Shown here: one piece after another, positions 4,150 to 64,000 of the stretch
Numbering within the stretch: position 1 is the stretch's first letter
Layout of the letters: each line of letters begins with the position of its first letter
Assembly (NCBI RefSeq): GCF_009811555.1
Contig: NZ_BLIN01000002.1
Span: 1,497,070 to 1,561,069, forward strand
Length of the DNA: 64,000 nt
Source: Streptomyces caniferus
GTDB taxonomy: Bacteria > Actinomycetota > Actinomycetes > Streptomycetales > Streptomycetaceae
Reading direction: 5' to 3'
Position numbers and translations under genes: made by a program
Notes under the pieces: generated by a model
Told to the model about the DNA's origin: nothing
What the model saw: the letters and a program-made list of their open reading frames with translations, nothing else
Databases searched by the model: none

Positions 4150-6675
<2,526 letters not shown>

Positions 6676-7174
6676 CGTTAATCGCTCCTCAGAGCGGTCA
6701 GGCAGTTAGGGGTCGGTCCCCTCCCTGTCCTTCCGCATGCTAGTCCCGCGGGGCGGGACAGCTCATTCCAACTGCCGACACCCGTCCGGATCACCCCCGC
6801 TCCGGCGGGGAAATTTACTGCCGAACAGCTGACATCTGCTCCAACTCGATGGTGCGAGACGATGTTCCCGCAGGCCAGGCATATACGCCCTCTGCCACTA
6901 CGCCCGTGGCGAACGCGCCCTGTACCGACACGCCGTCCGCCGCCGGCCCTCAGCCGGGGAGAGGCGCCTCGGGCGCCGGTCACACCGTCTCTTCCCACTG
7001 AGACTGTCTTACCCGCAGGCACTGACACTCCATGCGGCGCAGAGCCCTTCCATCCGCTACGGGCGAACACCCGCACACCACCGGACGCCCCTCGCGCCCC
7101 CCTTGTGCGGGCACGGTGCGTATCAGCGTCTCCACTCAGCGTAACTTCCCGGGTTTCCGGCAGTTGCACGGGGC
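6676..7174. other. Intergenic region upstream of clpC
   Basis: About 500 bp between the divergent clpC and SCO3374-like genes. It must hold the clpC promoter. A palindrome (GTCCCGC-GGG-GCGGGAC, 6743-6759) lies 68-84 bp before the clpC start. I could not identify a convincing ClgR or HspR site by eye. Open frames here have no ribosome binding site or recognisable product. Confidence 0.5.
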
Positions 7175-7882
7175 ATGGCCCGCGTACTTCCGCGCCCCCG
7201 CGGTCCCCTCGTCCCCCGCAGCCCCCTCACCCCTCCCGGCGTGCTTCGCCGCCGGTACGAGGAGGAGCTGGGCTGGCCGACCACCGCAACGGGGCCGGTG
7301 GAGCTGCTGACGGGGTCGCGCTTCGATGTCCTGGAGATGCCGGCCGATGCGGGGGGTGCCGTAATACGGCGACTGCCGCGCACCGGCCCCGTGGCGCTCC
7401 TTCGGGCCGGATGCGACGGGAAACACCCGGGTGATCGGCCGAAATTGCTCATGCTCATCGCGGCCGGTGGCGCGGAAGAAGTTCCGGGAATCCTGGAATG
7501 GCTGGAGTGGGGCGCACTCGCGGCGGATCTCACGACGCGTGGGACCGGAGACCGGATGCCCGCCCCGGCGTTCCCGGGGGGCACGGCACTCTCAAACGGA
7601 TTCGGCTCGCGGGAGGCCGCGGGATGGGTGCGGCCTCCCCGGCCCGGGTACGAGGCGGAGAATTCCCTGCCCACCACGGGGTTCGGGACAGGAATCGGGG
7701 ACGTTGGGGGCGCCCCCGACCTCGTACGGCTCGTGAGCGCGGCAGCGACGGAGTGCCACCGTGCCCGGTTGCGGCGTGCTCGTAATGCCCAATCGGACCG
7801 CGCGTACGGCGATCAGCCGTTGGCCTTCTCGAATGCCTCACGAATGTCGGCGGGGACGCGGCCACGGTCATTGACGTTGTAG
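7175..7882 (+). CDS. Conserved Streptomyces protein (SCO3374-like)
   Basis: 235 residues, function unknown. The conserved core includes RRRYEEELGWPT near the N-terminus, RFDVLEMPADAG, an ILEWLEWG motif and a WVRPPRPG motif. The N-terminal motif resembles the start of bifunctional primase/polymerase-type proteins in actinobacteria, but no catalytic residues are recognisable. As I recall, the same gene sits between clpC and lsr2 in S. coelicolor, which supports it as real. The last 24 codons run into the 3' end of lsr2 on the other strand, a convergent overlap of 70 bp; the tail after the RLRRAR segment is probably unconserved. The ATG has only a weak ribosome site (ACGGGG). Confidence 0.7.
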   Translation: MARVLPRPRGPLVPRSPLTPPGVLRRRYEEELGWPTTATGPVELLTGSRFDVLEMPADAGGAVIRRLPRTGPVALLRAGCDGKHPGDRPKLLMLIAAGGAEEVPGILEWLEWGALAADLTTRGTGDRMPAPAFPGGTALSNGFGSREAAGWVRPPRPGYEAENSLPTTGFGTGIGDVGGAPDLVRLVSAAATECHRARLRRARNAQSDRAYGDQPLAFSNASRMSAGTRPRSLTL

Positions 7883-62038: not shown

Positions 62039-62278
62039 TCAGTCCCGTACGAGATGGTCGAACTCCCCGTCCTTGATGCCGAGCAGCATCGCCCGGACCT
62101 CGGCCGGGGTGTAGACGAGCGCGGGACCGTCCGGGAAGCGGGAGTTGCGTACCGCGATGTCACCCCCGGGCAGCTTGGCGAACTCCACGCAGGAGCCCTG
62201 GGAGTTGCTGTGCCTGCTCTTCTGCCATGCCACATCGCGGAGATCCGTGGCGGCCATGCCGTTGTATGCGTGGAGCAC
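62039..62278 (-). CDS. DUF397 domain small protein
   Basis: 79 residues from GTG 62278 (GGGAG 6-7 nt upstream), giving MLHAYNGMAATDLRDVAWQK; a later ATG (62257) would cut the conserved AYNGM. Core motif WQKSRHSNSQGSCVEFAKL, IAVRNSRFPDGPALVYTPAEV. BldB belongs to this family. It likely binds the cognate XRE regulator, here encoded 0.9 kb away. Confidence 0.93.
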   Translation of the reverse strand: MLHAYNGMAATDLRDVAWQKSRHSNSQGSCVEFAKLPGGDIAVRNSRFPDGPALVYTPAEVRAMLLGIKDGEFDHLVRD

Positions 62279-62692
62279 AGGGGTCTCCCGGTGATAAATG
62301 GTGTCAACTGCCCGGGAGCATAGCTGCGTTCTCATGCGGATGCATGCGCAGATGCACGTGCACGACAGCCGGTGCAGAGCCGGTCACAGCTCGTCGAGCG
62401 CCCCGGCCAGATCCTCCCCCGACACCGGCCGCCGGCCATCGCCCCTGATGAGGCGCGCCCCGTAGCTGGTACGGACCACCCGGCCCGAAGCCCTCACCAC
62501 CGAGGGAGAGACGTGCGCCACGTGCTGCGGGTTCCAGGGGCACGGGCGGACACCCGGCCGGACGGGCGCGCGCACCGGACCGCGTTCGGCCCGTCACAGC
62601 CGGGAGGCACCCGCGCCTCACGCGCAGGGGGCCTCCCGCCGCCACCGGAGGGCACGCGTCACCGGACGGCACCCGTCACCAGGAGGCGGCCG
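62279..62692. other. Gap upstream of DUF397, with a shared motif
   Basis: 414 bp. Besides the element at 62349-62362, nothing secure. A minus-strand frame (62384-62575, 63 aa ending SGEDLAGALDEL) has no recognisable homology and no good ribosome site; it may be a relic from the decayed locus next door. Confidence 0.5.
62349..62362 (-). promoter_or_regulatory. TGCACGTGCATCTG element upstream of DUF397 gene
   Basis: Exact 14-bp match, on the minus strand, to 61303-61316; it lies 71 bp before the DUF397 start and includes the palindrome TGCACGTGCA. Orientation relative to the downstream gene is the same as at the ATPase gene. Confidence 0.7.
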
Positions 62693-62887
62693 TCACCGTG
62701 ACGCATACGGGAGCAGCGCCATCTCCCGTGCGTTCTTGATCGCCCGGGACAGCTGCCGCTGCTGATGCGCACGGACTCGGGTGACCCGGCGACGGGGGCA
62801 CCTCCCGGCCGAAGGCTGGGGGTTACGACTGTTCTTGCGGGTCACGTACGTGACAGGGGCCCCCTTGCTCCGGTCCACCGCCGGCAC
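62693..62887 (-). pseudogene. Chimeric remnant: ribosomal protein L33 fragment joined to S18 C-terminus
   Basis: The 64-residue frame carries [10 protein letters not shown] (residues 13-22), the signature of L33, then about ten residues encoded by a palindromic repeat, then [15 protein letters not shown] and AIKNAREMALLPYASR, the C-terminal half of zinc-free S18. The S18 N-terminal half and the L33 ends are missing. Neither protein can be functional as read. It is a decayed piece of an alternative (Zur-type) ribosomal-protein locus. Confidence 0.8.
62793..62822. repeat. Dispersed palindromic repeat at the L33/S18 junction
   Basis: GGGGGCACCTCCCGGCCG followed by AAGGCTGGGGG; a 7-bp stem (CCCGGCC with GGCTGGG, one G-T pair) and 3-nt loop. 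The same layout as the nadC repeat at 12500-12530. It sits exactly between the L33-like and S18-like segments. Confidence 0.7.
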
Positions 62888-62970
62888 CGTTCCCCAAGAT
62901 CAAGACCGTGGACACGATCGGCATCGAGGCGGCCGTCGCCCGGATCCGCGCACGAGGGGAGAAGGTCTGA
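62868..62970 (+). pseudogene. Joined fragments of L33 (LRSTAGT) and L28 C-terminus (rpmB remnant)
   Basis: Plus-strand 62868-62888 reads LRSTAGT, the L33 segment that normally precedes TYVTRKN. One frame over, 62896-62970 reads [24 protein letters not shown] and a stop, the C-terminal end of L28. The L28 stop overlaps the S14 start (TGATG), preserving the original rpmB-rpsN coupling. All N-terminal L28 sequence is gone. Confidence 0.78.
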
Positions 62971-63197
62971 TGGCCAAGCAGAGCAAGATCACCAAGAACG
63001 GGAGGCGCCGCGCGACCGCCGCCCGCGGCGAGCTCTCCTGCGGGCCGCGGGACGCCAGTACCACCCGGGTGCGCAACCGCGACAGCGTCGACGGGCACCC
63101 GCGCGGCTACCTCCGCGCCTTCGGACTGTCCCGGGGACGGCTGCGCGAGCAGGCGCACGCGGGCCACCAGCCGGGGGTCCGCAAGGCGAGCTGGTAG
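62970..63197 (+). pseudogene. rpsN: Ribosomal protein S14 (zinc-free type) with internal deletion
   Basis: 75 residues; the zinc-free S14 is about 101. The N-terminus [20 protein letters not shown] and the C-terminal [36 protein letters not shown] and PGVRKASW are conserved, but about 26 residues between (the AERRAELK...RELRRQ region of relatives) are missing in frame. The zinc-finger cysteines are absent as expected for this form. Ribosome assembly with this shortened protein is doubtful, but the frame is intact, so it may still be translated (AGGGGAG upstream). Confidence 0.7.
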
Positions 63198-63311
63198 CCG
63201 TGCCGCCGGCCGTCCGGCCCCGGGGGGCGACCCCTGGACCGGACGGCCGGAACGTTCGGGTAATACTGGACAGAACGTCCGCTGACCCTCCCGACGAAAG
63301 CGAGCGCGCCC

Positions 63312-63527
63312 ATGCTCCGCAACGCCTTCGAGCCCTGGCATCTGATCCTGATCATCGCGGTACTCGTGCTGCTCTTCGGTTCGAAGAAGCTGCCCGACAT
63401 GGCGCGCGGCCTGGGCCGCTCGATGCGCATCCTCAAGTCCGAGGCCAAGGCCCTCAAGGGCGACGAGCCGGCCGAGGCGCCCCGCCCGGAGTCCGCCCCC
63501 CGTCCGGAGACCGCCGCCCGCCACTGA
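63312..63527 (+). CDS. tatA: Sec-independent (Tat) translocase subunit TatA, paralogue
   Basis: 71 residues. One N-terminal membrane helix ([20 protein letters not shown]), the [19 protein letters not shown] hinge and amphipathic helix, then a short Glu/Pro tail. Multimers form the pore for folded proteins. tatC is not nearby and the tail is shorter than in main TatA, so this is probably a second copy. Confidence 0.92.
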
Positions 63528-63545: not shown

Positions 63546-64000
63546 TCAGTGGTCGCCGCCCTCGTCGATCAGCCGCCGCACCTCGCGGTCGATCAGCCCC
63601 AGCCGGGCCTCGGCGACCAGCGGCACCGCACGGCGCTGCCGCCGCGCCTCGGCGAGATCGATCTCGACGGTGATCACCGAGGGCTCCCATTTCGGTGCCT
63701 GCGCCACCACCGCGCCGCGCGGGTCCACCACCCGCGAGCCGCCCCAGAACGCCGCGCCGTGCTCATTGCCCACGCGATTGACGAAGACCACCCAGCACTG
63801 CAGCATCCTTCGCCGTATAGGACAGCAGGGTGTCCCAGTAGAGCCGGTGTCCATCGCCTCCGGATCCAGGCTCGCCGCGCTGTTCGTCGGGATGAACAGC
63901 ACCTCGGCGCCGTCCTGCACCGCCAGCCACGGCAGCGTCGGCTGCCAGGCGTCATTGCAGATCAGCGTCGCGCCCCGGCCGCCGCTCCTGGCCCGCTTCA
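63546..64000 (-). CDS. Nitrilase/carbon-nitrogen hydrolase family protein, 3' part, with compensated frameshift
   Basis: C-terminal ~151 residues; the start is beyond the window. The catalytic cysteine is visible in TLICNDAWQPT, followed by VQDGAEVLFIPTNSAA, RMLQCWVVFVNRVG, GGSRVVDPRG and the closing REVRRLIDEGG. Between DPEAMDT and RMLQCW the frame reads GSTGTPCCPIRR, but the next frame reads LYWDTLLSYTAK, as relatives do; one base is missing and one extra base is present about 35 bp later. The rest is in frame. Ends 16 bp from the convergent tatA. Confidence 0.8.
   Translation of the reverse strand, partial: KRARSGGRGATLICNDAWQPTLPWLAVQDGAEVLFIPTNSAASLDPEAMDTGSTGTPCCPIRRRMLQCWVVFVNRVGNEHGAAFWGGSRVVDPRGAVVAQAPKWEPSVITVEIDLAEARRQRRAVPLVAEARLGLIDREVRRLIDEGGDH

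Follow-up and report, generated by a model that had tools for sequence, protein, structure and literature searches.

The closest described systems to the locus presented here are the zinc-free ribosomal protein paralogs of Streptomyces coelicolor. In the available part of one report, rpmE2, rpmF2, rpmB2, rpmG2, rpsN2 and rpsR2 are included in the Zur regulon list and Zur binding to the rpmG2 promoter is tabulated (PMC6103462), and in the available part of another, the cysteine-less paralogs are described as repressed by zinc-bound Zur (PMC5472717). According to the accessible text of another paper (PMC3353972), Actinobacteria and Firmicutes have the largest numbers of paralogs, and the accessible sections of a paper on S4 describe duplication followed by differential gene loss, along with transfer of paralogs from a Streptomyces source (PMC3087516). 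As far as those sections go, this literature follows the same process for whole genes across many genomes, whereas the locus described here shows loss caught half-way, at base resolution and at one site, with near relatives that are intact.

The window, which is the whole stretch of DNA that was analysed, comprises the final 64 kb of contig C2 of the Streptomyces genome G000 (C2:1497070-1561069). The S. coelicolor paralogs regulated by Zur are of the same gene types as the clusters of intact relatives and as a second set on contig C7 of the same genome, whereas the copy in the window contains no complete gene and no palindrome resembling a Zur box. We are highly confident that the 505 bp at 62693-63197 are a pseudogenised copy of a zinc-free ribosomal-protein cluster of the Zur type, the loss of which would have been tolerated because of the second set.

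Ancestral cluster and layout of the remnant

In near relatives the intact cluster occupies 2.6 kb and is divided into two divergent units. S18, a CobW-family GTPase, L31 and L33 share one strand, L28 and S14 occupy the other, and a palindrome lies between the two units. It lies between the same neighbours, which are an HTH/DUF5753 gene, a gene for an ATP-binding protein and a DUF397-type gene on the left, with tatA as the usual right neighbour, along with a nitrilase-like gene (tatA was not found adjoining the cluster in L177). For the window, we take the left neighbour to be DUF397-type and the further flanking genes to be those for the ATP-binding and nitrilase-like proteins. The main comparison locus was L166, from genome G414, in which the left-flank proteins are 98-100% identical to those of the window and the right-flank proteins 88-92% identical. 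By this comparison, the ancestral cluster consisted of two divergent units around a shared control region, with S18-CobW-L31-L33 reading leftwards and L28-S14 rightwards.

Piecewise alignment to the intact cluster of the relatives bore out the original prediction that this is the remnant of an alternative ribosomal-protein locus, and all of the pieces were recovered where they had been placed (Table 1). The prediction had described an operon of L33, L28, S18 and S14; those are indeed the genes, but they belong to two divergent units that also contain L31 and the CobW-family GTPase. The opposite strands of L33/S18 and L28/S14 are the native divergent layout and need no inversion. From the S18 stop codon to the S14 stop codon, L166 spans 2615 bp (4711-7325) compared to 505 bp in the remnant. 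The S18, L33, L28 and S14 genes are all truncated at the site, leaving no complete zinc-free gene, and neither the CobW-family GTPase nor L31 was found in the remnant part of the window.

Table 1. Features of the remnant and its immediate neighbours, in window coordinates
Feature	Position	Strand	Remarks
DUF397-type gene	62039..62335	-	Conserved left neighbour
S18 (rpsR2, zinc-free), C-terminal part, ~32 codons and stop	62693..62791 (end approximate)	-	N-terminal half deleted
Hairpin-forming 29-bp repeat at the S18/L33 joint	62794..62822	+	Pattern search of the genome; fold
L33 (rpmG2, zinc-free) core, TYVTRKN, native orientation	62823..62852	-	27/30 identical to L175
Palindrome GTCACGTACGTGAC	62841..62854	.	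12/14 bases as in the genome's own C7 L33 gene
CAGGGGCCCC, possible leftover of the stretch immediately before the native rpmB2 start codon (L166 6759-6768)	62854..62863	+	10-bp same-strand match
L33 23-bp piece (LRSTAGT), inverted	62867..62889	+	Natively continues the minus-strand L33 core
L28 (rpmB2, zinc-free), C-terminal end, ~23 codons	62899..62970	+	Lacks the start codon and the N-terminal two thirds
S14 (rpsN2) with in-frame 78-bp (26-codon) deletion, 75-codon open frame	62970..63197	+	Pfam S14 4e-20
tatA-like gene	63312..63527	+	Usual right neighbour; Pfam TatA_B_E 9e-15

Pfam was run for five of the six cluster proteins (all but L31). The S18 piece covers positions 21-52 of the 52 in the Pfam S18 model (4e-10), and its DNA matches L166 4675-4809, with the register kept to about 62791. 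The S14 remnant covers positions 5-54 of 54 with a score of 71.7 bits. Pfam did not recognise the L33 and L28 pieces, which were identified through alignment with the relatives; for the L33 core, longer but weaker alignments to other relatives extend into the hairpin repeat.

The remnant thus shares both homology and conserved position with the intact clusters. Its pieces show 86-94% identity to the clusters at this site in G414, G372, G318 and G088, and these matches run on into the DNA beside the cluster. A tree of the flanks places G414, G318 and G372 nearest to G000, with G372 as sister to G414, and the site is intact in G414 and G318. No other genome contained the scrambled form running through the joints (E <= 1e-40, two candidates scored per genome) in two overlapping samples, one of 392 genomes including G000, in which 17 others matched in part, and one of 394 including G000, in which three others did. 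Eight plasmid records gave partial matches, none of which covered 80% of the query.

Deletions, a local inversion and a hairpin repeat

The remnant carries the scars of several rearrangements. Between S18 and L33, ~1.8 kb has been deleted, and a 29-bp hairpin repeat, which the original prediction had missed, now sits at that joint. In all, the site no longer has CobW, L31 or the divergent control region, and S18, L33 and L28 are for the most part missing. Within S14, the predicted loss of about 26 internal residues is exactly 26 codons, with 78 bp missing between 11-bp direct repeats (ACCGYCGCCCG) that are 78 bp apart. The prediction of an inversion, drawn from the presence of L33 on both strands, together with deletions also held in that both occurred, although the inversion is limited to the 23-bp piece encoding LRSTAGT. 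All 23 of its bases equal the reverse complement of L166 6656-6678, which is beyond chance, as 2000 shuffles of a 46-bp stretch reached at most 12 matches.

A gap of 14 bp separates the minus-strand L33 core from the inverted piece on the plus strand. Close to the inversion joint lie GGGGCCCC and CACGTACGTG, which are self-complementary as compared by eye. At the site, native CACGTACGTG was counted in 0 of 20 relatives; four of them (L063, L074, L134 and L173) carry GACGTACGTG. It is possible that CAGGGGCCCC is what remains of the region upstream of rpmB2, a weak match that could also be due to chance. The 14-bp palindrome at 62841-62854, to which the original prediction drew attention, does exist, but the first 12 of its bases belong to the L33 coding sequence and are shared with the intact C7 copy, and 20 perfect 14-bp palindromes occur in the window. 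It is not diagnostic and was rejected as a scar or signal.

The hairpin repeat is found at six distinct places in the genome (seven matches at <=3 mismatches, compared to none for a reversed-pattern control). These six, which include C2:948849-948877, comprise two exact copies and four near ones. It folds with -15.3 kcal/mol, and its first 13 bases alone are unremarkable, with one match in the window against 0.67 expected. The repeat was not found at the site in the fetched relatives, and a looser pattern matched once across 2.15 Mb from the other loci fetched. It is possibly a small REP-like element.

In this lineage, the 2.6-kb cluster was reduced to 0.5 kb through several deletions, including one between the S14 direct repeats and the hairpin-marked one of ~1.8 kb, and through one complex joint that flipped 23 bp of L33 and removed the control region. 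Template switching during replication would produce such a joint. Template-switch mutations, as described in the accessible parts of two papers, carry a flipped spacer or arm where short inverted repeats occur (PMC8604942, PMC7202029), and share with the remnant a short local inversion accompanied by loss of neighbouring sequence. The remnant differs in that flanking inverted repeats explaining both joints were not resolved, and template switching is the mechanism that we infer.

Relaxed selection on S14, the control region and assembly support

Along the branch to G000, S14 acquired ~14 nonsynonymous and three synonymous changes (dN 0.09, dS 0.05, from small counts), or 12.2 and 1.8 with G372 as the partner. 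The three flanking genes have a dN of 0.002-0.006 and a dS of 0.06-0.12 on the same branch, and omega for S14 among four intact relatives is 0.03-0.35. Although the counts are small, the remnant S14 is under relaxed selection, without visible constraint. The S18 tail (30 codons) differs from G414 by two nonsynonymous and six synonymous changes and shows no clear relaxation.

These counts bear on whether the truncated S14 (75 amino acids) could be made, and either enter the ribosome as a shortened zinc-free S14 or interfere with assembly. Its frame is still open, with an ATG start and a purine-rich run upstream, the deletion is in-frame, and Pfam continues to recognise the S14 family. Nevertheless, we consider a working short S14 very improbable given the excess of nonsynonymous changes, the loss of the divergent control region and of the L28 start, and the intact S14 of the same type on C7. 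A sigma-70-like promoter was also not matched in 62336-63320, a point of little weight since shuffles gave no match either. Under the preferred reading of a pseudogenised cluster, transcription would have been lost, and a product of the remnant would be unlikely to be made or to work.

Of 20 relatives, 18 have a palindrome, AAATGN5CATTT, in the sequence upstream of L33. This palindrome is absent from 62336-63311 of the window, in agreement with the original prediction that no Zur-like palindrome is left. The position and conservation of this palindrome, together with the literature, suggest that it is a Zur box, and both the remnant's ancestor and the C7 cluster would presumably have been placed under Zur control. 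With the 21-bp Zur motif given in the available part of PMC5472717, the best score in the remnant is 8/15 compared to 10-12 in five intact regions. The 15-bp motif from the same part of that source scores 8/11 in both the remnant and intact L166, and 62 of 300 background pieces reached a score of at least 8, so that this score was rejected as decisive and weight was placed on the palindrome shared among the relatives.

The site lies at the end of a contig, where a misjoin could conceal a cluster that is really intact: the window runs to the very end of C2, and its final 9.6 kb are also found at the end of C5. This overlap of 9569 bp, in reverse orientation, encloses the remnant and is 99.98% identical with two gaps. 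The only two differences, at 63807 and 63844, are both outside of the remnant, and the two contigs read the remnant identically, though perhaps from the same reads. An artefact would also have to account for the scattered substitutions that the remnant has of its own, and for a clean, in-frame S14 deletion between direct repeats, so we find it hard to credit. The C5 matches for S14 and S18 do not represent a second remnant, because C2 and C5 overlap and are best read as one locus.

At 63807 the window has one extra C relative to C5 and, 37 bp on, one missing C. This pair, within 63546-63998, puts ~12 codons of the nitrilase-like gene out of frame, and is probably a sequence error at the contig end.

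A second intact set and the state of the site in relatives

The original prediction had called for a search for a second intact zinc-free set, and a full one, in the same divergent order, is present in G000 at C7:318191-320682. Over 2.6 kb, its DNA shares 98% identity with that of the second cluster in G372. Between these second sets, dS is 0.057 for CobW and 0.0375 for S14, the latter as rough support only, since that row includes codons upstream of the gene. Core dS between G000 and G372 is 0.17-0.21 for three flanking genes (HTH, ATP-binding and ALDH) and 0.08 for a 51-codon piece of tatA. Since the C7 set has diverged from the second set of G372 much less than the core genes have, it was probably acquired or exchanged horizontally, which fits these values best. 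A second long S14 was not found in G414.

The C7 cluster (L015, C7:310000-329999) lies on a 333-kb contig, ~12.5 kb short of its end. In four relatives, pieces of the DNA around the cluster find their matches at scattered positions, a pattern like that of a chromosome arm or a mobile region.

Second clusters that seem horizontally mobile, one of them in G000 itself, might suggest that the site received a foreign or duplicated fragment from another cluster, but this is almost certainly wrong, as the remnant is closer to the same-site relatives than to C7 (76-85%, pieces >22 bp), the relatives' matches continue into the cluster-adjoining DNA, and the site is intact in 16 of 22 genomes.

That count comes from a non-random sample of 92 loci, from which G000 and 21 distinct relatives were compared at the site. 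For tatA, the best 80 of 167 relatives were used. Loci with neither a cluster gene nor the HTH and DUF397 pair (68 of the 92) were left out of the count, and L059/L173, L064/L171 and L065/L174 were each treated as the same record and counted once. Alignment with the related loci, as the original prediction had proposed, found all six genes intact in the 16 genomes. Among the other relatives, G372 has lost CobW and retains S18 in fragments; G416 (Streptomyces endophytica) has lost S18 and L28 and retains a fragment of S14; G419 (Streptomyces sp. NRRL S-337) has lost L28 and likewise retains an S14 fragment; and CobW is broken in G373. In G423 (Streptomyces sp. H27-H5, L129), the same neighbours surround a site that is empty of cluster genes, and searches of the genome yielded no long or alternative S14, no relative of CobW and no alternative S18. 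Ten more-distant cluster loci (L048-L057) fall outside of the 22; of those inspected (L048-L054), CobW is in two pieces in L049 and L054, and S14 is in two pieces in L050.

A second long S14 is present elsewhere in four of the five genomes with partly eroded sites (G000, G372, G416 and G419, not G373), compared to two of the 16 intact genomes (G318 and G417). Fisher's test gives p 0.011, or p 0.025 with G423 added (4/6), values that are optimistic because the genomes are not independent (G416 is sister to G419, and G000 is close to G372) and the sample is non-random. Redundancy is not required for loss, as G373 and G423 lost genes without a second copy. In G416 the set is split, with L33-L31-CobW at the old site (L058) and L28-S14, with a similar palindrome, elsewhere (L183). 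Only L28 and S14 of the six genes were found at L183, and no alternative S18 was found in this genome.

For G000, we suggest that the second intact cluster on C7 would have permitted decay of the resident one. The timing is awkward, because S14 appears unconstrained along the whole branch, whereas the divergence of the second clusters in G000 and G372 is recent (dS about 0.04-0.06). Decay may have begun before the C7 set arrived, unless the G000 lineage had the set first.

The remnant is an instance of ordinary gene decay, a known kind of event, with scars that are unusually legible, and 62693-63197 should be annotated as pseudogenes rather than as an S14 gene. It provides a base-resolution view of an alternative ribosomal set being dismantled while another set in the genome stays intact. 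Additionally, the related species provide a comparative series at one site, from intact through half-eroded, split and wrecked to empty, which allows the idea that acquired copies replace ribosome parts to be put to the test. It is conceivable, although we lean slightly against it, that zinc-free sets are exchangeable cassettes in Streptomyces, in which a mobile set arrives, the resident set at the fixed site between DUF397 and tatA is worn away one arm at a time, and strains are left with sets that are complementary or, as in S. endophytica, split. This wider pattern of set turnover is only suggested by the present sample; if it is true, the window would represent one stage in a recurrent turnover of ribosome parts.
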